DNA of 64,000 nucleotides from Herbidospora daliensis (GTDB lineage Bacteria; Actinomycetota; Actinomycetes; Streptosporangiales; Streptosporangiaceae), in contig NZ_BBXF01000007.1 of the NCBI RefSeq assembly GCF_001570585.1, positions 62,001-126,000 on the forward strand, written 5' to 3'. A program made the translations under genes and the position numbers. Shown here in pieces: positions 29,137 to 39,077 of this stretch. Within the stretch, counting starts at the first letter, position 1. Each line of letters begins with the position of its first letter. A model generated the notes under the pieces. The model did not search any database. It saw only the letters and a list, made by a program, of their open reading frames with translations, and was not told where the DNA came from.

Positions 29137-31344
29137 CTAACGCAACTCCAGCGCGAAGTCGCCCGCCGGGCAGCCCGAGAGCCGCCAGCCGCCGGGCACC
29201 TGCCGGAAGGCCACGCTGGAGATCCCCGAGGTCGTCACCGCCGGGCGGGTCGGGCCCGGCGCCCAGACGTCGAGGTCGCACCGCCCGGTCCCCTTGGTTC
29301 CGGTCAGCCGCAGGTGGCGACGCTCCGGATCCGACCACAACGAGGCGAGCCGCCCCGGCACCGCCCTCGGGTAGGCCCTGCTCACCGCGTTGCTCACGGA
29401 GCGTGACGGTCCCCTTTCCCTACCGGTGAGGCAGTCGACGGTCACCAGGTTCCCGGCGGTGGCCGGGTCGGCGCCGGCGAGGTGCGGATCGCCGCAGGCC
29501 TGCTTCCAGACCCAGAAGGCCCCGCCGATCATGGCGCTGTCCTCGGCTTTCGCGTACGCCGCCAGCCGCCCCCCGCCCCAGGCGCTGGTCCACAGGGGGG
29601 TGCCGTAGCGGTCGGCCATCCGGGCCGAGAGGGCGACCGCGCGGGCCGGGTCGATCGGCAGGTCGGCGGGCTTGACGGCCAGCACCAGCCGGGGGTCGGC
29701 GGCGAAGCCGGGCCAGGGCGCCCACAGCGGGCCCGGCTCGAAGAAGATCAGGTGCCGGTGGCCGCCCGCCGCGCGTTCGGCCTCCCTGATGGCGGCGACG
29801 GCGCGGGCGTAGAAGCGGCCGAGCGCGGCCGAGGAGGTCAGCGGCGGGGTCTCGCCGAGGCCGGGGCTGTTCATCAGGTCGAACCCGGCGACGGCGGTCG
29901 AGTCGGCGAACTCGCCGGCCAGCCGTCCCCAGGTCGCCACCAGCCGGGTCTGCACGCCGCCCCGGTCGGCGTAGAAGTCGCCGAAGGCCCGGTTGACCAC
30001 CGGGGCCAGCTCCTTGACCAGGAACTGGCAGCGTTTGCTGCCGTCGAACGGGGTGGCCCAGCCGGGCGCGCCGTCCCAGCCGATCATCGGGGTGGTGCCG
30101 GTCGGGCAGGTGGAGCCCATCGGGGCCACCACGCCCCGGCCCCACGCGTCTTGGTGCAGGTCGATGACGGTGACCATGTCGTTGGCGGCGGCCTGGTCGA
30201 CGGCCCGGCGGATGCGGGCGACGTAGCCGGCGTCGAGGGCGCCGGGGGTGGGTTCGAGCAGCGACCACGAGACGGCCAGCCGGACCACCGAGAAGCCCAT
30301 CGCGGCCATCTGGCGGAAGTCGTCGTCGGTGAGGGGGCGCACGGTCTCCTTGGTCGAGTCGCCGCTCCAGTAGTCGACGAGCTGGTTCACCCCCACCCCG
30401 CGTAACAGCACCTGGCGGCCCTGACCGTCGGTGATGGCCCGGTCGGGCAGCGCGGAGGCCTCGGGCGCGAGCGTGATCGCCAGGGCCAGGACGGGCACGG
30501 CCGCCTTCTTCCTCCCGGGCAGCAGGATCGTGGCCGTGGCGGCGAACAGGCCGATCACCGCGCCGTAGGAGGCCCCCACGGCCATCCTGATGAGCAGGGC
30601 GAACAGCGGCCAGGCGTCGCCGGAGAGGGCGTCGGCGGGTCCGTACGCGAGAAGTGCCGTGACACTCTGGGCGAAGCCCAGGAAGAGCCCGCCGCAGAGG
30701 CACGCGAGCCAGCACCCGACGAACCGGCCGGGCCCCGCGACCAGCCGCGCCGAGGCGAGGTGGACGGCGGCCAGGAACACCCCGAGGCCGATCAGCCCGC
30801 CGACGACCCCGGCCCCGGCGGTCGGCGCGAAGAACCACCAGCCGCCCCCGAAGGCGTAGCCGACGGGGGAGTGCGTCCACCACCCGGGCCCGAGCACGAT
30901 CAGCCCGCCGACCCCCGCGAACGCGGCCATGACCGTGAACTCCGGCACCGGCCGTCCCCAGGCCCGCTTGGTGCGGCGTGTCACGATCCAAGCAGGGATC
31001 GCGGCAGGCCAGCAGAGAACGCCCAGGTAGACCCCGGTGAAGCCGGCGGACCAGGCGGTCGTGAACGGTCCTTCGCCCAGCGGAACGGTCCCGAGGAAGC
31101 GCCCGGTGACGGCGGCCAGCACCAGCACGCCCCAGGCGGTCAGGAAGCCCCGCCGCAGCAGGTAGCAGCCGCCGAAGAAGGCGGTCACGGTCAGCACCGC
31201 CTCGGCGCGGCCGGGGGCGAGCAGGCCCGTCGGATCGGCGAGGTCCAAGGTCAGCAGCAACCCGGCGAGCACGGCGGACCCGGCGCCGGCGGCGCGGAGG
31301 GCGGTGGGGTCCACGGCGGCGAGACGGGGCACCCCGTGATCCAA
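29137..31344 (-). CDS. Polytopic membrane protein with GH5-like domain lacking catalytic glutamates
   Basis: A 735-residue fusion. The first 310 residues hold about nine or ten transmembrane helices. From about 315 the protein is a GH5 (endoglycoceramidase-like) barrel: GQGRQVLLRGVGVNQLVDYW, MGFSVVRLAVSWSLLEP and VIDLHQDAWGR are classical blocks. The acid/base motif usually NEP reads NSP here (Ser493). The nucleophile motif usually TEFG/SEWG reads TSAWG (Ala588). Both catalytic Glu are therefore replaced, so it is probably a carbohydrate- or lipid-binding pseudoenzyme at the cell surface. There is no frameshift, so it is under selection as a protein. Confidence 0.85.
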   Translation of the reverse strand: MDHGVPRLAAVDPTALRAAGAGSAVLAGLLLTLDLADPTGLLAPGRAEAVLTVTAFFGGCYLLRRGFLTAWGVLVLAAVTGRFLGTVPLGEGPFTTAWSAGFTGVYLGVLCWPAAIPAWIVTRRTKRAWGRPVPEFTVMAAFAGVGGLIVLGPGWWTHSPVGYAFGGGWWFFAPTAGAGVVGGLIGLGVFLAAVHLASARLVAGPGRFVGCWLACLCGGLFLGFAQSVTALLAYGPADALSGDAWPLFALLIRMAVGASYGAVIGLFAATATILLPGRKKAAVPVLALAITLAPEASALPDRAITDGQGRQVLLRGVGVNQLVDYWSGDSTKETVRPLTDDDFRQMAAMGFSVVRLAVSWSLLEPTPGALDAGYVARIRRAVDQAAANDMVTVIDLHQDAWGRGVVAPMGSTCPTGTTPMIGWDGAPGWATPFDGSKRCQFLVKELAPVVNRAFGDFYADRGGVQTRLVATWGRLAGEFADSTAVAGFDLMNSPGLGETPPLTSSAALGRFYARAVAAIREAERAAGGHRHLIFFEPGPLWAPWPGFAADPRLVLAVKPADLPIDPARAVALSARMADRYGTPLWTSAWGGGRLAAYAKAEDSAMIGGAFWVWKQACGDPHLAGADPATAGNLVTVDCLTGRERGPSRSVSNAVSRAYPRAVPGRLASLWSDPERRHLRLTGTKGTGRCDLDVWAPGPTRPAVTTSGISSVAFRQVPGGWRLSGCPAGDFALELR

Positions 31345-31721
31345 CCAGCCCCACTGGCCTCCCGACTAGGGGTGTCCACCGCTGGTCAGATTGCGCATTT
31401 CACCGTAAAGCACAGCAAATTAGGACCGATCCCGGTATTTCGGTCAGGTGCCTACAAAAGTGTCACTCCACTGCAATCTTGATCATCATCATTTGATCAT
31501 GTGATACTGCGCCGGTGGTGCCGAAGTTACGGCAAAACATCACAGGTGCGACATACAGCTAGTGAAGTGAAAAATCGGGAGGTAACCGGCATTCAACAGG
31601 CCGTCGAAACCGGTCGCCGTTCCTGGTCACGTACGCACGATCTCCTGGACCCTCCAAGCGCTCCTCCGCCATGGGCGCTGACTGTGCTGCGCAAATCCTT
31701 CACTGTGGGGAGCACCGAGAA
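31345..31721. promoter_or_regulatory. Gene-free regulatory region before the terpene cluster
   Basis: This 377-bp stretch is distinctly richer in A+T than its flanks. It holds two direct copies of TTGATCAT (31479-31486 and 31493-31500, 14 bp apart) that also form an inverted repeat GATCA/TGATC with 8-bp spacer. Short A-runs (AAAACATC, GTGAAAAAT) follow. A short open frame spans 31501-31821 but has poor codon bias and no similarity. I infer that the promoter and operator of the P450-terpene operon lie here. Confidence 0.6.
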
Positions 31722-33071
31722 ATGTCCGTCGAGACACCCGCGAGACCTGCCCGCCCCCCGCGCAACCTGCCGTTACGCCGGTTGCTGCCCATGGTCGTCA
31801 AAGCCCCCCTCGAAGGTCTGACCGACGTGGCCAGAGATGCCCGGGGGGAGATCGTCCGGCTGGACGTCGGCCCCTTCCGGCCCTACCTGCTGAGCCACCC
31901 CGACCACCTCCAGCACGCGCTGCGCGGCGACTGGACCAGCTTCCTGCGCAAGGGCATGTTCTGGAAGCCCGTCGAACGGCTGCTCGGCGACAGCGTCATC
32001 GGCGACGGGCCCGGCTGGGCGGCCAGCCGCAAGGTGCTCCAGCCGCTCTTCACCGCGCGCTACGTGGCCTCGCTGACCGACGACATGGCCGCCACGATCG
32101 ACCGGGGGCTCGACGAGCTCACCCCGGGCGTGCCGATCGACGCCATGGACGAGATGAACCGCATCGTCACCCGGGCGGTCGTCTCGGTGCTCTTCGGCGA
32201 CCGCATCTCCCCGAGTGAGGCGGAGGTCCTCGGGCCGGCGTACACGACCGCGAACACCGCGCTCGGCTTCCGGATCGCGCTGCCGTTCGTGCCCGACCGG
32301 GTGCCGCTGCCGGGCGACAAGAAGTTCATGGGTGCGCGCAGGACCATCGACGACGTGCTCTACCCGCTGATCCGCCAGGCCCGCAAGGAGCGCAGCGACG
32401 GGCCCGACATCATCTCGGCGCTCGTGCGCGCTCGCGACGACGAGGGTCGCGAGCTCACCGAGCGCAAGCTCCGCGACGACCTGGCCAGCATCTACGGCGC
32501 CGCCACCGAGACCGCCGCCGTCGCGCTGACCTGGTTGTGGCCGATCCTGCACGAGCACCCCGACGTGGCGGCCCGGCTCTACGCCGAGATCGACGAGGTC
32601 ACCGGCGACGGGCCGGTCGGCGCGGACACGCTGCCGAGGCTGCGCTACCTGGACATGGTGCTGCGCGAGACGATGCGCCTCTATCCGGCCGGCTGGGCCA
32701 TGCCGCGCCTGGTGACCAGAACCCACGAGGTCGGCGGGGTCACGCTCAGGGCCGGGTCGCAGGTGCTCATCAGCCCGTACATCACCCACCGCCTGGACGA
32801 GTTCTGGCCCGACCCGCTGACCTTCGACCCCACCCGGTTCGAGGGCGACCGCGACAAGCGGCACCGCTACTCCTACCTGCCGTTCGGGGCCGGGCCGCAC
32901 CTGTGCCTCGGGCAGCACCTGTTCTTCATCGAGGCGCCGCTGCTGATCGCCGGGCTGCTGAAGCGGTTCCGGCCGGAGCTGGTCACCGAGGCCCCGTTCC
33001 CGGTGCAGCCCGCCGGCACGCTGCGCAGCCGCAAGAAGATCGAGATGATCCTGCGCCCGGTGACCCCGTGA
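31722..33071 (+). CDS. Cytochrome P450 (terpene cluster)
   Basis: A 449-residue P450. The I-helix is SIYGAATETAAVALTW (oxygen-activation Thr), the K-helix is ETMRL (ExxR), and the heme loop is FGAGPHLCLGQ with Cys395 as thiolate ligand. The length and the I-helix Glu-Thr pair are bacterial. The ATG at 31722 is chosen since the preceding part of the frame has poor codon bias. The gene is the first of three that overlap one another by 4 bp, the others being a class I and a class II terpene synthase. It therefore probably oxidises the terpene product; the redox partner is not in the window. Confidence 0.93.
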   Translation: MSVETPARPARPPRNLPLRRLLPMVVKAPLEGLTDVARDARGEIVRLDVGPFRPYLLSHPDHLQHALRGDWTSFLRKGMFWKPVERLLGDSVIGDGPGWAASRKVLQPLFTARYVASLTDDMAATIDRGLDELTPGVPIDAMDEMNRIVTRAVVSVLFGDRISPSEAEVLGPAYTTANTALGFRIALPFVPDRVPLPGDKKFMGARRTIDDVLYPLIRQARKERSDGPDIISALVRARDDEGRELTERKLRDDLASIYGAATETAAVALTWLWPILHEHPDVAARLYAEIDEVTGDGPVGADTLPRLRYLDMVLRETMRLYPAGWAMPRLVTRTHEVGGVTLRAGSQVLISPYITHRLDEFWPDPLTFDPTRFEGDRDKRHRYSYLPFGAGPHLCLGQHLFFIEAPLLIAGLLKRFRPELVTEAPFPVQPAGTLRSRKKIEMILRPVTP

Positions 33072-33862
33072 TCGACGCCTACTCCGCCGGCCGGGCGAGC
33101 GGGCTGGCGGCGGGTTCCGCGCGCGATCTGACCGCCCGCGCCGCCGCGTACCCCGATCTGTTCCCGGCCCGGCCGTTCGACGCGACGCTCTTCACCGCCG
33201 TCTCGCTGGCCAACGCGTTCGGCTCGCCCGACGCGACGGTGGCCGAGCTCCGGGTGGCCAACCGGCTGTCCCTGTGGATCTTCGCGGTCGACTGGCTGAT
33301 CGACCACCGGGCGACGGAGCCCGGCGAGGTCGACGCGATCGTCGACGAGTGCCTGGGCGGCGGCGCCGCGAGCCCGCTGACCGCCTTCCTCGGCGAGATC
33401 CGCGAGGAGGTCGCCGACACCCGGGGGTTGTTCGAGGCCGAACTGGCCCGGATGCTGCACGCCATGCGCCGCGAGTTCGCCTGGAAGGCGGCCGGCGAAC
33501 GGCCGACGCTGGAGGTCTATCTCGGCAACGCGGCCAACTTCGGCTCGACCTTCGTCAACGTCGCCCACTGGACCAGGAACAACGTGGCCGACATCCCCGG
33601 CCTGCTGCCGGCCAGCGACGAGGTGCAGAAGGTGCTGCGGCTGCTGAACGACCTGGCCACCCACCACCGCGACGTCAGCTGGGGCGATTTGAACGCGCTG
33701 ATGCTCGGCCCCACGCCCGATGAGGTCCGCTCGCACATCACGCACCTGGTCGGCACCGCGCGCAAGCTCATCGGCGACGGCCCCCAGGCCGGTTACCTGG
33801 GCCGGCAGATCGGCTACAGCTCCGGCTTCTACGGCGTCGCCGACTACTGGGGGAACCGGTGA
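33068..33862 (+). CDS. Class I terpene synthase-like enzyme
   Basis: A 264-residue alpha-helical protein, short for a bacterial class I terpene synthase (usually about 310-350). The Asp-rich motif is DWLID (Asp75, Asp79), a variant of DDxxD with the second Asp replaced by Trp. The NSE triad reads NDLATHHRD (Asn194, Thr198, Asp202), with Asp for the usual final Glu. The start is GTG 33068, overlapping the P450 stop, and its own stop overlaps the class II cyclase start. It should ionise a prenyl or cyclised diphosphate made by its neighbour. The short N-terminus and variant motif make activity less certain. Confidence 0.8.
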   Translation: MIDAYSAGRASGLAAGSARDLTARAAAYPDLFPARPFDATLFTAVSLANAFGSPDATVAELRVANRLSLWIFAVDWLIDHRATEPGEVDAIVDECLGGGAASPLTAFLGEIREEVADTRGLFEAELARMLHAMRREFAWKAAGERPTLEVYLGNAANFGSTFVNVAHWTRNNVADIPGLLPASDEVQKVLRLLNDLATHHRDVSWGDLNALMLGPTPDEVRSHITHLVGTARKLIGDGPQAGYLGRQIGYSSGFYGVADYWGNR

Positions 33863-35355
33863 ACGCCGACGAACTCGTGCGCGACCTGATGTCGCGGCCG
33901 TGGGGCGACGTGTCGCCGTCGGTCTACGAGACCGGCCGCCTGGTCACCCTCGCGCCCTGGCTCGTCGGGCACGCCGAGCGGATCGAGTATCTGTGTGCCC
34001 GGCAGCGGCCCGACGGCGGCTGGGGCGCGCCCGACGGCTACGACCTGGTGCCCACCCTGTCGGCGACCGAGGCCCTGCTGTCCGCCGTCGACCGGGGTGA
34101 TCCGGCGCCGCGCCGAGGCGATCCGAAGGCCGCCGCGCGGCGCGGGCTGGCCGCGCTGGCCCGGCTGCTGGGCGGCGAACCGTGGCGGCCGCTGCCCGAT
34201 ATGCCGGCGATCGAGCTCATCGTGCCGCACCTGATCGGCCTGATCAACGTACGTCTCGGTGATCCGGGCCTGCCGATCCCGCCCGGCATGAGCACGGCTC
34301 CGCTCGGCCGAATTCGCGGCTGGTTGAAATCGGGTGCGCAAGTTCCAGAGAAATTGCTTCATGCTCTGGAAATAGCGGGAGATTCCGCGACTTTTGCGCA
34401 AACGGGCGTTACTTCTATTGGTACGGTCGGAGCCTCCCCGGCCGCCACCGCGGCCTACCTCGGAGACCGGGGACTCATGGACGCCGGCAACCCGGCCCGC
34501 CTGCACCTGGAGGCGGTCGCCCGGCGGTTCGGCGGGCCGGTCCCCGTGGGCCTGCCGATCACCGTCTTCGAACGTGGCTGGGTGCTGAGCACGCTGGTCA
34601 GAGCCGGTGTGCCGGTCGATCCCCCGGCCGAGATGCTGGCCGATCTGGTGGCCGCGATAGGCCCCTCGGGCAGCCCGGCCGGCCCCGGCCTGCCGCCCGA
34701 CTGCGACACCACCTCGGTGGCCCTCTACGCCCTTGGGCTGTTCGGGATCCCGTACGACCCCGAGTGCCTGCTGGCCTACGAACTCGACACCCACTTCTGC
34801 ACGTGGCAGGGCGAAGAAGGGGCCTCCATCAGCACGAACGCCCATGTGCTCGACGCGCTGGGCCGCCATTTAAAGCTGGCGCCGGAGGCCCGCCGCTACC
34901 GCCCCCGCGTGGAGAAGGCCGCCGCGTGGCTCATGGCGAAACAGCTGCCCGACGGCTCGTGGCGCGACCGCTGGCACGCCAGCCCCCTCTACGCCACCGC
35001 CTGCGCCGCCCTGGCGCTGCGCGAGTATGGCGGCCCGGCCGCGGAAGAGAGCGTGGACAGGGCGCTGACCTGGACACTCGCCAACCAGCGGGACGACGGA
35101 TCGTGGGGCAGGTGGACCGGCACCCCGGAGGAGACCGCCTACGCGTTGCAGATCTTACTGCTCATCGGAGGGCTCCGGCACCGCGAGGCGGTGGCCCGCG
35201 GACACGCCTTTCTGACCGATGACGACGACGTCTCGGAATGGCCGCCGCTGTGGCACGACAAGGACCTGTACCTGCCCGTTTCCATCGTCAGAGCGGCCAT
35301 GATCGCGGCGCGTCATCTTACGCAACAGAATGCAGCGACCTATCTTCAGATATGA
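33859..35355 (+). CDS. Class II terpene cyclase (beta-gamma fold, DxDTT motif)
   Basis: A 498-residue alpha-barrel cyclase. The general acid motif is DCDTT (Asp281, Asp283), a DxDT(T) variant of DxDD; from memory, bacterial class II sesquiterpene (drimenyl diphosphate) cyclases show the same pattern. QW-like repeats QRPDGGWG (about 50-56), KQLPDGSW and NQRDDGSWG are present. The enzyme would protonate a prenyl diphosphate (FPP or GGPP) and leave the diphosphate for the class I partner encoded just upstream. GTG start at 33859. Between about 34310 and 34435 codon use becomes A+T-rich (TTT, AAA, ATA), unlike the rest. Confidence 0.88.
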   Translation: MNADELVRDLMSRPWGDVSPSVYETGRLVTLAPWLVGHAERIEYLCARQRPDGGWGAPDGYDLVPTLSATEALLSAVDRGDPAPRRGDPKAAARRGLAALARLLGGEPWRPLPDMPAIELIVPHLIGLINVRLGDPGLPIPPGMSTAPLGRIRGWLKSGAQVPEKLLHALEIAGDSATFAQTGVTSIGTVGASPAATAAYLGDRGLMDAGNPARLHLEAVARRFGGPVPVGLPITVFERGWVLSTLVRAGVPVDPPAEMLADLVAAIGPSGSPAGPGLPPDCDTTSVALYALGLFGIPYDPECLLAYELDTHFCTWQGEEGASISTNAHVLDALGRHLKLAPEARRYRPRVEKAAAWLMAKQLPDGSWRDRWHASPLYATACAALALREYGGPAAEESVDRALTWTLANQRDDGSWGRWTGTPEETAYALQILLLIGGLRHREAVARGHAFLTDDDDVSEWPPLWHDKDLYLPVSIVRAAMIAARHLTQQNAATYLQI

Positions 35356-35406
35356 GTACATAAAGGGACACGTGTTGAGTGTGTTTCCCGGCATTGCTAA
35401 GGTTCC

Positions 35407-35484: not shown

Positions 35485-37746
35485 GTGGTTGATATGCGCT
35501 TCCGCAATTCCCGAGTGCGCACCAAGGTGGTGGCACTGCTGCTGTCCCTCGCGGCCCTTTGGGGGTTCGCGGCTTGGGTCACGCTCCGGGAAGGCGTCAA
35601 CCTCCTGTTCGTGAACACCTTCGACCAGGGTGTCGCGCAACCCAGTGACGCGCTCGTGCTGGCCCTCCAGGACGAACGGCGCGCGTCGGTCGTCCAGCTC
35701 GCCGGCCGCCGCCCGCTGGCCGCCATGTCTGGTCTGCGGGTCAAGACCGACCAGACCAGGACCCATTTCGAGAGCCTCGCCAAGGGCGACGACGTCAGGT
35801 TCGCCTCCAGCCCCGACACCGTCAAGCGCCTCGACGAGCTGTTCGGCCTGCTGTCGGGGTTGACCGACATCCGCAAGGCGGTCGACCAGGGCCGGATCAA
35901 CCGCGACCAGGCCGCCGACGGCTACACCAAGGTGCTCGACGCCATCTTCCGCACGTATTTCTCCGTCGCGACCCTCGACGACGACGAAATCGCGAAGGAT
36001 GCTCGCACTTACATCAGTCTTCAGCGCGCACGTGAAGTTCTTTCGCAAGAGGACGCGCTGCTCGCGGGCGCCATCGCGGCCGGCCGATTCGGCGCGGCCG
36101 AACACGCGAAATTCGTCCAGATCGTCGGAGCCCAGCGATTCCACACGGCCGAGCAGGTCAGCGAATTGCGGCCGACCGACCGGGCCTACTTCGACACGCT
36201 GCTGGAGAGCGACGCGTTCACCCGCCTCCGCCAGACCGAGAACGCGGTGATGGAGCGCGGCCGGACCCTGGAGGCGCCGCCCGTCACCGCCGACCAGTGG
36301 CAGCAGACCACCTCGGTCGCCCTCGGCCGGATGATGGACGAGGTCCTCGCGGGCGGCGACCGGGTCGTCGAGCGGGCCACGCCGGTCGCGCTGGGCGTCA
36401 TCATCCGCCTCGTGCTGGCCGGCGGCCTCGGCCTGGTGGCGGTCGTCGCGTCGGTCATCCTGTCGATCACCACCGCCCGGCGGCTGGTCGCCCAGCTGGA
36501 GAAGCTCCGCGACGCCGCCCACCAGCTCGCCGACGAGCGGCTGCCCGGCGTCGTCGAACGGCTCGCCCACGGCGAGAAGGTGGACGTCGCCAAGGAGGCG
36601 CCGCCCCTGGAGTTCGGCGGCGACGTCATCGGCCAGGTGGGCCAGGCGTTCAACGCCGTGCAGGAGACCGCGATCCGGACCGCCGTCGAGGAGGCCGAGC
36701 TCCGGCAGTCGATCCGCGACATCCTGCTCAGCCTGGCCCGCCGCACCCAGTCGCTCGTGCACCGCCAGCTCACCCTGCTCGACGTCATGGAGCGCCGCGA
36801 GACCGACGCCGACGAGCTCAGGGACCTGTTCCGGGTCGACCACCTCGCCACCCGCATGCGCCGCAACGCCGAGAACCTCATCGTCCTGTCGGGCGCGAGC
36901 CCGGCCCGCGCCTGGCGGCGCGCGGTCCCGATGGTCGACGTGGTGCGCGGCGCGCTCGCCGAGGTCGAGGACTACACCCGGGTGACGATCATGCCGATGG
37001 GCCAGGTCGACCTGACCGGACGGGCCGTCGGCGACGTCATCCACCTGCTCGCCGAGGTGATCGAGAACGCGGTGTCGTTCTCGCCGCCCTACACGGTCGT
37101 GCAGGTCGGCGGCCACCAGGTCGCCAGCGGCTACGCCATCGAGATCGAGGACCGGGGTCTGGGCATGACCCAGGAGGACCTCGACGAGGCCAACGCCCGC
37201 ATCCTGAACCCGCCGGAGTTCAACCTGTCGAGCACCGCCCGGCTCGGCCTCTACGTCGTCAGCCGCCTGGCCGAACGCCACGGCATCCGCGTCTCCCTCA
37301 AGAGCTCCCCCTACGGCGGCACGACCGCCGTCGTACTGCTGCCGAGTGAGCTGGTCATCGACGACCGGCCCGCCGACATCCCCCCGGCCGAGCAGCTGCC
37401 CGAGGCCCTTCCGAGACTGGCCGAGGTCACGATGCTCGCCGCGCCCGTGGCGCAGCTCACCCAGCGCCGCCCAGAGCCCGAGCAGGACACCCCTGTCGCT
37501 CCGCGCGTCCCGGAGGCCACCGTGACCGAGTTCACCCCGTCTGGTCTGCCCTTCCGTGTTCCCCAGGCGAGCATCGCCCCGTCGCTGCGCGACGCGGTCG
37601 ACGACCTCGCCGAACCGGAGGACGAGGACGACGAACGGTCACCCGAAGAGATCCAGCGCATCATGGGCTCGTTCCAGTCGGGCACCCGGCGGGGCCGGTC
37701 CGATGCGGCCCGCAAACTCCAACAGAACGAAGGGGACGATCGGTGA
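35485..37746 (+). CDS. cvnA: Conservon sensor kinase with nitrate/nitrite-sensing-type domain
   Basis: A 753-residue membrane kinase-like protein. A transmembrane helix at about 13-33 precedes an extracytoplasmic NIT-type helical domain (about 55-300). A second helix (about 308-332, VIIRLVLAGGLGLVAVVASVI), a HAMP-like linker, the phosphoacceptor-like helix FRVDHLATRMRRNAENL and an HATPase with EVIENAVSFSPP and EDRGLGM follow. The C-terminal 130 residues are Pro-rich. It heads the conservon and overlaps cvnB by 4 bp. Start either GTG 35485 or ATG 35494. A patch at about 35985-36165 has lower G+C. Confidence 0.92.
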   Translation: MVDMRFRNSRVRTKVVALLLSLAALWGFAAWVTLREGVNLLFVNTFDQGVAQPSDALVLALQDERRASVVQLAGRRPLAAMSGLRVKTDQTRTHFESLAKGDDVRFASSPDTVKRLDELFGLLSGLTDIRKAVDQGRINRDQAADGYTKVLDAIFRTYFSVATLDDDEIAKDARTYISLQRAREVLSQEDALLAGAIAAGRFGAAEHAKFVQIVGAQRFHTAEQVSELRPTDRAYFDTLLESDAFTRLRQTENAVMERGRTLEAPPVTADQWQQTTSVALGRMMDEVLAGGDRVVERATPVALGVIIRLVLAGGLGLVAVVASVILSITTARRLVAQLEKLRDAAHQLADERLPGVVERLAHGEKVDVAKEAPPLEFGGDVIGQVGQAFNAVQETAIRTAVEEAELRQSIRDILLSLARRTQSLVHRQLTLLDVMERRETDADELRDLFRVDHLATRMRRNAENLIVLSGASPARAWRRAVPMVDVVRGALAEVEDYTRVTIMPMGQVDLTGRAVGDVIHLLAEVIENAVSFSPPYTVVQVGGHQVASGYAIEIEDRGLGMTQEDLDEANARILNPPEFNLSSTARLGLYVVSRLAERHGIRVSLKSSPYGGTTAVVLLPSELVIDDRPADIPPAEQLPEALPRLAEVTMLAAPVAQLTQRRPEPEQDTPVAPRVPEATVTEFTPSGLPFRVPQASIAPSLRDAVDDLAEPEDEDDERSPEEIQRIMGSFQSGTRRGRSDAARKLQQNEGDDR

Positions 37747-38156
37747 CCGCCGCCGACCTCGCCTGGCTCCTCGACGACCTGGTCAGCAACGTCCGGGAGG
37801 TGCGGCACGGCATCGTGCTCTCCTCCGACGGGCTGCTGCTCGCGAGCTCACGGGACCTGGAGATATCCAGCGCCGAGCACCTGTCGGCGGTGGCCGCCGG
37901 AGTGCAGTCGCTGGCCCGGGGCGTGAGCGAACGTTTCGAGGGCGGAGCCGTCCGGCAGACCATCATCGAGATGCGGTCGGCCTACCTGGTGGTCACCGTC
38001 GCCGGCCACGGCGCCTGCCTGGCCGTGCTCTGCGAGGAGGACGCCGACGTCGGCCTCGTCGCCTACGAGATGGCGATGCTCGTCGTCCGCGTCGGGCAGT
38101 ATCTGACGTCTCCCGCACGGTCGGTGTCGTCTTCTACGGGCAGGAGCGACCCGTGA
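37743..38156 (+). CDS. cvnB: Conservon roadblock/LC7-domain protein
   Basis: A 137-residue Roadblock/LC7 protein: DLAWLLDDLVSNVREVRHGIVLSSDG and ARGVSERFEGGAVRQTIIEM are hallmark blocks. It acts as a regulator of the conservon GTPase, probably forming a dimer at the membrane. ATG/GTG start inside the cvnA stop (GTGA), and its stop overlaps the cvnC start. Confidence 0.95.
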   Translation: MTAADLAWLLDDLVSNVREVRHGIVLSSDGLLLASSRDLEISSAEHLSAVAAGVQSLARGVSERFEGGAVRQTIIEMRSAYLVVTVAGHGACLAVLCEEDADVGLVAYEMAMLVVRVGQYLTSPARSVSSSTGRSDP

Positions 38157-38512
38157 ACCCAGACGAGCAGCTGTACGACGAGCAGGTCGTCCGTCCCTAC
38201 GTCATCTCGCGCGGCCGGACCGAGGCCCGCGCCAACCTCGACCTGATCTCCCTGGCGGTCGCCATCAGGCAGCCGACCGGGCTGGAGGTCGGGCTCGACC
38301 CCGAGCACCTGGCGATCGTGCGGCTGTGCCGCCGGCCGCTGTCGGTGGCCGAGATCGCCGCCGCCCTCGACCTGCCCGCGGGCACGGTCAGGGTGCTGCT
38401 CGGCGATTTGCTCGACTCGGGCTTCGTGGCGGTCCAGGACCCGCAGCCCGAGGTGGACGTACTCGACGAGCGAATGTATAGGGCGGTGCTCGATGGCCTC
38501 CGTGCCCTCTGA
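38153..38512 (+). CDS. cvnC: Conservon DUF742 protein
   Basis: A 119-residue DUF742 protein with a winged-helix-like end (SVAEIAAALDLPAGTVRVLLGDLLDSGFVAV). YVISRGRTEARANLDLISLAVA is the family N-terminal block. It begins with GTG 38153 overlapping the cvnB stop and overlaps the cvnD start by 20 bp, the usual tight conservon arrangement. Confidence 0.95.
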   Translation: MNPDEQLYDEQVVRPYVISRGRTEARANLDLISLAVAIRQPTGLEVGLDPEHLAIVRLCRRPLSVAEIAAALDLPAGTVRVLLGDLLDSGFVAVQDPQPEVDVLDERMYRAVLDGLRAL

Positions 38513-39077
38513 CAAGCCACGGATGCCCACCCCCGTGAAGCTGCTCATCGCGGGCGGCTTCGGGGTGGGCAAGACCACCATGGTCGGCGCGGTCTCCGAG
38601 ATCAAGCCGCTGCGCACCGAAGAGGTGCTGACCGACCGCAGCGTCGGCGTCGACGACCTGTCGGGCGTCGAGCGGAAGACCACCACCACGGTGGCGATGG
38701 ACTTCGGCCGGATCAGCGTCGGCGACGACTACGTGCTCTACCTGTTCGGCACCCCCGGCCAGGAGCGGTTCTGGTTCGTCTGGGACGAACTGGCCAGGGG
38801 CGCCCTGGGCGCCGTCGTGCTCGCCGACACCCGCCGGCTGTCCGACTGCTTCCCGTCGGTCGACTACTTCGAGCGGCGCGGCACCCCGTTCGTGGTCGCG
38901 GTCAACTGCTTCGAGGGCGCCCCGGTCTACGACCTGGCCGAGGTGAAGCTGGCGCTCAGCCTGCCGCCGGACATCCCCGTGCTGCTGTGCGACGCCCGCC
39001 GCCGCGCCTCCGGCAAGGAGGTGCTGATCACCCTCGTCCAGCACGCCTACAGCAGGCGGCCGGTCGCCAAGGTCTGA
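38493..39077 (+). CDS. cvnD: Conservon small GTPase
   Basis: A 194-residue ATP/GTP-binding protein. The P-loop is GGFGVGKTT, followed by a switch region with RKTTTTVAMDFGRI and G3 GTPGQERF as in eukaryotic-like Ras/Rab/Arf GTPases. The G4 position reads VNCF rather than NKxD. It completes the cvnABCD complex, a membrane-linked switch thought to control differentiation and secondary metabolism. It is convergent with and overlaps menD by about 31 bp. Confidence 0.95.
   Translation: MASVPSDKPRMPTPVKLLIAGGFGVGKTTMVGAVSEIKPLRTEEVLTDRSVGVDDLSGVERKTTTTVAMDFGRISVGDDYVLYLFGTPGQERFWFVWDELARGALGAVVLADTRRLSDCFPSVDYFERRGTPFVVAVNCFEGAPVYDLAEVKLALSLPPDIPVLLCDARRRASGKEVLITLVQHAYSRRPVAKV

Follow-up and report, generated by a model that had tools for sequence, protein, structure and literature searches.

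The window analysed here, 64,000 nucleotides of contig NZ_BBXF01000007.1 from the 8.5 Mb genome of Herbidospora daliensis (Streptosporangiales), carries genes for a cytochrome P450, a class I diterpene synthase and a class II diterpene cyclase, followed by a four-gene conservon (Table 1). The first three frames overlap by 4 bp at each junction, as a preliminary description of the sequence had stated, and all lie on the plus strand; open frames, Pfam and matches to solved structures confirmed this layout. The frames are not due to chance, because the class I protein matched Sat1646 (7e4n) at a phmmer E value of 6e-52 and the class II protein matched PtmT2 (5bp8, an ent-copalyl diphosphate synthase) at 7e-115. 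Directly 3' of the class II gene, Pfam identified the contiguous genes CvnA-B-C-D at 35485-39077, a conservon that the preliminary description does not mention; CvnA may start at an ATG at 35494. A NIT sensor domain was found in all 17 CvnA proteins scanned.

Table 1. Coordinates of the diterpene operon, the conservon and the promoter-like elements in the window
Feature	Coordinates	Strand	Details
First promoter-like element, before P450	31479..31508	+	TTGATC 31479-31484, 18 bp, GATACT 31503-31508
Cytochrome P450 gene, terpenoid-oxidising type, 449 aa	31722..33071	+	PF00067, E 2.4e-64
Class I diterpene synthase gene, Sat1646 type, 264 aa, GTG start	33068..33862	+	phmmer match to 7e4n
Class II diterpene cyclase gene, copalyl-diphosphate-synthase type, 498 aa, GTG start	33859..35355	+	phmmer match to 5bp8
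Second promoter-like element, before cvnA	35375..35403	+	TTGAGT 35375-35380, 17 bp, TAAGGT 35398-35403
CvnA, membrane kinase-like, NIT sensor	35485..37746	+	PF08376, E 7e-41; HATPase_c, E 3e-13
CvnB, roadblock/LC7 protein	37743..38156	+	PF03259, E 1e-22
CvnC, DUF742 protein, start uncertain	38120..38512	+	PF05331, E 1e-33
CvnD, small GTPase, P-loop GGFGVGKTT (translation)	38493..39077	+	PF03029, E 7e-33

Conservation of the block and its upstream elements

Gene presence was counted by tblastn; a simple gene caller under-calls the class I gene (TPS1), the class II gene (TPS2) and CvnC. The class I gene was matched (E 1e-8 or better) in 205 of the 345 genomes of the order, distributed over 29 of 70 genera, and six relatives of the same genus as the window had a match; with Sat1646 as query, it was matched in 174 of 354 Micromonosporaceae genomes (11 of 44 genera). 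A class-wide sample of 394 genomes gave 19 matches at 1e-15, 18 of them from the window's own family and one from the Micromonosporaceae. The order P450-TPS1-TPS2-CvnA-B-C-D on one strand was present in 90 of 100 loci of the order (four were cut by contig ends and six were partial), these loci being taken from the listed matches with E 8e-53 or better and leaning to closer relatives. The same order recurred in 35 of 42 named loci (three cut, four partial), a set that overlaps with the 100 loci, and in 17 of 20 Micromonosporaceae loci, among them the Salinispora-like locus L164, which encodes a class I protein with 98% identity to Sat1646 and likewise has its conservon downstream. Loci L214 to L225 were picked for special reasons and lie outside these counts.

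Across 123 neighbourhoods, the P450 family was called in 121, CvnA in 116, CvnD in 113 and CvnB in 108, and the commonest flanking family in 34; the surroundings thus change from locus to locus and the block stays. A tree built from 137 CvnA proteins placed on one side all 102 whose loci carry the class I gene, joined by 2 of the 35 others (L214 and L186); the CvnA of L214, on this terpene-linked side, adjoins a class II gene and a P450 gene. Pairwise distances were correlated over 122 loci (TPS2-CvnA 0.76, P450-CvnA 0.70, CvnA-CvnD 0.70, TPS1-CvnA 0.52). When 20 genomes in which the class I gene had no match were searched with CvnA, the best match was 61% in genome G020 (L214), 49-51% in genomes G327, G010 and G006 and 35-45% in the rest, and no terpene genes were seen around the three matches at 49-51%. 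In the window's own genome, none of the nine other PF19086 matches lay within 40 kb of any of the seven other CvnA matches.

The linkage survives rearrangement and enzyme swap (L120/L221, L169, L170, the L123 type and L214): the conservon of L169 is divergent from the enzyme genes, and L170, L123, L127 and L128 are without a class II gene and keep at least CvnA.

Several of these loci are organised in their own way. The arrangement P450-TPS1-CvnA, in which the class II gene is missing and CvnB-C-D could not be detected, was read in L123 (8520-14009), L127, L128 and L260, and in L123 CvnA is followed by a frame that can be read as a sigma factor of the extracytoplasmic-function type. Thermomonospora echinospora (L120) and L221 possess back-to-back modules, one with the class II gene and a conservon, the other with P450, class I gene and a second conservon, and a further class I gene besides. 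L214 (7305-16851) combines a conservon with a class II gene and a P450 gene, its class I gene being replaced by a divergent frame that reads as a canonical terpene synthase and adjoins a polyprenyl-synthase-like frame. In L048 and L049 the P450 was not detected and only the tail of CvnA is kept; this "headless" CvnA of L048 (12111-12734) is a 207-aa frame with the C-terminal tail motif only (SGLPVRVPQ ... RSPEEIHRIMDAYQLGTRRGRS), placed before CvnB-C-D, and similar short pieces occur in L049, L120 and L221. The tail may be the part of CvnA that binds CvnB or CvnD. Second class I copies were found in genomes G162 (L225:9524-11224) and G143 (L266), and nearby only a CvnD-like GTPase was detected. 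A polyprenyl-diphosphate-synthase-like gene neighbours the block in 34 of the 123 loci and a NuoN-like gene in 13 (e.g. L046 and L056, as read from the sequence); such surroundings are perhaps an old chromosomal site.

Upstream of the P450 gene, the 16-mer TTGATCATGTGATACT lies at 31493-31508. Of 85 distinct upstream regions, 15 contain it exactly, 36 agree with it in 14 or more of the 16 letters and 41 in 13 or more, and 24 of 39 further loci of the order also reached 13 or more; the best score in a shuffled control was 12 of 16, in one of 425 sequences. In nine of ten genomes the exact 16-mer occurred once, at the diterpene operon, and in the tenth the copy at the operon had two mismatches. 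A genome-wide regulon was looked for in the ten genomes and rejected, with exact matches at this operon only and four two-mismatch sites elsewhere against three for a reversed-pattern control. Among 79 distinct gaps between TPS2 and cvnA, TTGCTAAGGT occurred in 26 and TTGCTAGGGT in 18; after one crude block shuffle, any 10-mer occurred in at most 2. Both elements look like sigma-70-type promoters whose hexamers would be the -35 and -10 boxes, and since the first is constant over a long stretch, it may serve as an operator too.

Enzymes and predicted product

The class I protein aligned with Sat1646 over its length, VDWLID with EDWQVD (87-92) and NDLATHHRD with NDLASYERD (223-231), so that the places of D88, D92, N223, D224, S227, R230, D231 and R220 of Sat1646 are held by D, D, N, D, T, R, D and R. 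Crystallised with Mg, Sat1646 is reported to coordinate the metal through the first seven of these residues, and it converts copalyl diphosphate (CPP) to isopimara-8,15-diene (PMC9814573). By homology to Sat1646, DWLID and NDLATHHRD would thus be metal sites. A comparison of 88 distinct class I sequences, that of the window included, showed no variation at the places of Asp88, Asn223, Asp224, Arg230 and the sensor Arg220; the Asp92 place was Asp in 87 and Glu in one, the 227 place was Ser or Thr in 87, and the 231 place was Asp or Glu in all. These residues and the phmmer match place the protein with the crystallised Sat1646 among the class I diterpene synthases.

The motifs named in the preliminary description are present (DWLID at D75-D79 and NDLATHHRD from N194 in the class I protein, DCDTT at 281-285 in the class II protein), but they are not the variants it took them for: DxxxD was found in 87 of the 88 class I sequences (one ends in E) with W in second position in 80, and among 83 distinct class II proteins of more than 440 aa DxD(T/S)(T/S) was universal and DxDD absent. 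Its remark that the class I enzyme is unusually short holds in so far as its 264 aa put it among the shortest members of the family; the length is within the range of 262-316 aa (median 290 aa, 103 loci), and the AlphaFold model is complete and all-helical (pLDDT 94.3, pTM 0.92), which together with the Sat1646 match bears out a terpene synthase fold. The suggestion that its chemistry is open and might be phosphatase-like is disfavoured, since the Mg-binding places all hold acceptable residues. Viral integrases also appeared among the PDB matches of this protein (E 0.4-2) and were regarded as chance.

The Tyr183-Tyr288 dyad of Sat1646 is incomplete in the window, with Phe at 183 and Tyr at 288. 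Tyr183 is the proposed base of Sat1646, the catalytic dyad is described as setting the 8,15-diene, and Y183F mutants yield isopimara-8(14),15-diene (PMC9814573). By this precedent, the Phe suggests a delta-8(14),15-diene, and the window enzyme, although related to Sat1646, is probably not an 8,15-diene synthase. Among 134 distinct sequences the Tyr183 place held L in 52, F in 44, C in 11 and Y in 10. Of ten loci of Microbispora (genus g29), seven match the window at all ten places tabulated, and the other three carry Cys at 183; 2-hydroxy-8(14),15-pimaradiene dioic acid has been reported from Microbispora hainanensis (PMC10301674), which agrees, at the level of the genus, with the prediction from residue 183.

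The score of the class II protein was 388 bits with PtmT2, whereas two other cyclases, 7xqz and 8zg0, gave only 36-37 bits. The former of these two is a drimenyl-diphosphate-synthase entry, and the scores disfavour a drimane route. Identity was 52.6% to L164 and, over the printed part of the latter three only, 49.7% to PtmT2, 39.6% to Tpn2 and 34.5% to Rv3377c. The central Asp of DxDD is kept and the fourth place is Thr, DCDTT in the window and DADTT in L164; the DxxxxE motif (D114-E119) is present, and Tyr471 takes the place of Tpn2 Y489. Asp467 stands at the place of PtmT2 D502 and Tpn2 G485, which was Asp in 77 and Gly in 5 of 83 sequences, and in Tpn2 this residue is reported to choose labdane over clerodane (PMC9814783). 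In a tree, the 142 class II proteins that come from full loci grouped together to the exclusion of the three references (support 0.848). The enzyme would be expected to convert geranylgeranyl diphosphate (GGPP) to CPP, most likely of the normal configuration.

The nearest solved structures of the P450 were 3dbg/3el3 and 7wzl (E about 3e-48), the first of which is the albaflavenone P450 CYP170A1; among NCBIfam models, those for pentalenene oxygenase and albaflavenone monooxygenase came out best, at scores far under their cut-offs. With the P450 of L164 it shares 46.6% identity; that protein is presumably CYP1051A1 of the isopimara-8,15-dien-19-ol cluster. No polyprenyl or GGPP synthase match was found on the window's contig, and four were found elsewhere in the genome. 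The product is likely to be a pimarane-type diterpenoid oxidised on the C-4 methyl, as judged from the enzymes; we infer its substrate, stereochemistry, double-bond position and oxidation site, and likewise the co-transcription of the genes. The terpenoid logic proposed from P450, class I and class II enzymes stands as a labdane-type operon, whereas its drimane option is unlikely in view of the class II scores, a tricyclic pimarane is expected in place of a bicyclic product, and a product thought unpredictable is in part predictable.

Relation to known systems

The closest known system is the Salinispora sat/terp1 cluster (Sat1646, Sat1645/SaCPS and CYP1051A1), with isopimara-8,15-dien-19-ol as its reported product (PMC9814573; PMC10301674). 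The window likewise brings P450, class I and class II genes together, and L164 has the same seven genes in the window's order; the class I proteins of window and L164 are 44.3% identical. In comparison with Sat1646, the window has Phe for Tyr183, Ile for Val84 and Phe for Thr85, and residue 183 argues for a double bond other than that of isopimara-8,15-dien-19-ol. The accounts of the sat/terp1 cluster in the Results of PMC9814573 and in passages of PMC10301674 do not mention a conservon. Stt4548, an isopimara-8,15-diene synthase of Streptomyces (7e4m), shares the class I fold and CPP as substrate (phmmer E 3e-13) but is far more distant than Sat1646, with the motifs DDCAD and NDVASHRRE. PtmT2, Tpn2 (7xkx) and Rv3377c (6vpt) have the class II fold, the central Asp and DxxxxE in common with the window; PtmT2 and Tpn2 carry DxDD where the window has DCDTT, whereas Rv3377c has DCDTT too, but with its low identity and an Ala at the labdane Asp place.

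The conservons of Streptomyces coelicolor have the CvnA-B-C-D order and domains of the window, which differs from them in the three-gene diterpene operon upstream and in a CvnA that keeps NIT; P450 (CvnE) or GAF (CvnF) partners are reported with CvnA proteins without NIT (PMC13343842). The nearest precedent found for the linkage is that of indole prenyltransferase clusters, described as always accompanied by a conservon across actinomycetes (PMC3617294), although these make prenylated indoles and have the conservon upstream of the structural genes. Searches limited to open-access literature turned up no description of a link between a diterpene operon and a conservon. As enzymes, the three proteins extend a kind already known; their constant union with a NIT-type conservon adds a new form of conservon-linked biosynthesis.

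Proposed control by the conservon and competing explanations

The observed gene content, order, homology, residues, conservation and common upstream elements make it probable, in our judgement, that the seven genes form one functional unit, a pathway to a pimarane-type diterpenoid controlled by the conservon. GGPP, supplied in trans, would be cyclised by the class II enzyme to a labdane diphosphate, most likely normal CPP; the class I enzyme would ionise CPP with Mg and form the third ring, giving an olefin of the isopimaradiene type, most likely the delta-8(14),15-diene, which the P450 would oxidise, most likely at the C-4 methyl. The conservon would read an extracellular or membrane signal and gate the pathway, so that the diterpenoid would be made only on cue. 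That it acts on the diterpene operon is suggested by analogy: deletion of cvnA8 or cvnF8 in S. coelicolor is reported to derepress an adjacent lanthipeptide cluster 7.0- to 41.8-fold (PMC13343842), and indole prenyltransferase clusters are constantly accompanied by a conservon; these precedents come from PMC13343842, PMC8510531 and PMC3617294.

Several points weigh against this interpretation. The node uniting all linked CvnA proteins had a support of only 0.235 (0.81 for 98+1 and 0.999 for 68+1 proteins), shared ancestry lies behind part of the distance correlations, for which there was no neutral control gene, and terpene-free conservons occur in or near the clade (L186/L215, L216 and L217). 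L167 has the enzymes and no conservon within about 9.5 kb, and CvnA is a short C-terminal piece in L048/L049 and in the second modules of L120/L221, so the sensor kinase appears dispensable in some lineages. The 16-mer TTGATCATGTGATACT scored 8-10 of 16 in 14 named Micromonosporaceae upstream regions and never passed 12 in another 20; of the remaining 71 regions in the set of 85, 30 had scores of 12 or less. As for the chemistry, the class I pocket is variable at the Tyr183 place and products probably differ between genera; identities of 52.6% (L164) and 49.7% (PtmT2, ent) cannot separate normal from ent CPP; 22 of 83 class II sequences have Asp for the Glu of DxxxxE; and the place of Tpn2 Lys383, the proposed diphosphate holder (PMC9814783), is Arg in all 83 (Arg371 in the window), a mismatch of probably small weight since Arg is also basic.

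The operon and the conservon might also be separate functions that are adjacent through vertical inheritance, which we regard as unlikely. Part of the spread does look vertical, as the polyprenyl-synthase-like and NuoN-like surroundings (34 and 13 of 123) indicate, the conservon has its own promoter-like element, and the terpene-free conservons near the clade point the same way; however, the flanks change while the block stays in the 123 neighbourhoods, the linkage outlasts rearrangement in L169, L120/L221, L170, the L123 type and L214, and in the window's genome the other PF19086 and CvnA matches lie apart (0/9). Still less probable is a role of the enzymes as accessories of the switch, in which the P450 would partner the kinase in the manner of CvnE, the cyclases would make its ligand or cofactor and the output would be signalling elsewhere in the cell. 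P450 accessories of this kind are known and have been modelled on kinase ATPase domains (PMC13343842), but according to the same source CvnE occurs overwhelmingly with CvnA proteins without a sensor domain, whereas NIT was present in 17 of 17 here, the window's own CvnA among the NIT bearers; moreover, the P450 has 3dbg/3el3 as its nearest structures and its gene overlaps a cyclase gene. A pathway to a drimane or another sesquiterpenoid, in which the class II enzyme uses farnesyl diphosphate and the class I enzyme only removes the diphosphate, seems highly improbable: the drimane cluster of Streptomyces clavuligerus, it is true, also pairs a class II enzyme with a P450 (PMC11035983), but the class II scores (388 versus 36-37 bits) and the kept Mg-binding set of a CPP-cyclising class I enzyme speak against it.

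A more far-reaching proposal, which we consider possible but rather doubtful, is a closed signalling circuit, in which the operon would make an oxidised pimarane hormone and the co-inherited CvnA would sense its own or a neighbour's version and signal to CvnD; each genus would then have tuned its class I pocket and hence have its own dialect. The CvnA columns separating the terpene-linked group lay at the two membrane spans and the HAMP region (12 of 167 columns), which would suit a greasy ligand entering from the membrane, but the rate in DHp is almost equal (7 of 122). With 1 of 228 columns, a signature in the NIT pocket was rejected.

One conservon lineage here has a constant metabolic partner over many genera, so that the operon and its upstream element are a concrete target, with the operon's own product as a candidate ligand; conservons are described as widespread in actinomycetes, with largely unexplored inputs (PMC13343842). 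In Salinispora strains, no diterpenoid was detected in the fermentations reported (PMC9814573; PMC10301674), for which conservon control would offer a reason, and such control would provide a means of activating the pathway; its class I gene is present in about half of the genomes examined in the two groups. Pimaradiene-type compounds have been reported from Microbispora, Micromonospora and Verrucosispora (PMC10301674) and may be products of this family. The full block was also observed in L109, from Micromonospora gifhornensis. The Actinomadura norditerpenoids listed in PMC10301674 are pimarane-derived. M. gifhornensis and Verrucosispora gifhornensis are one species. Gifhornenolones, which are isopimaradiene derivatives, have been reported from the latter (PMC10301674), and L109 is therefore a candidate for tying a known compound to the block.

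On the other side of the operon and divergent from it, the window encodes a GH5-type protein of 735 aa with a long hydrophobic N-terminal part (29137-31344, minus strand), a family which among the 123 neighbourhoods was present only in the same genus and in L064 and L073.

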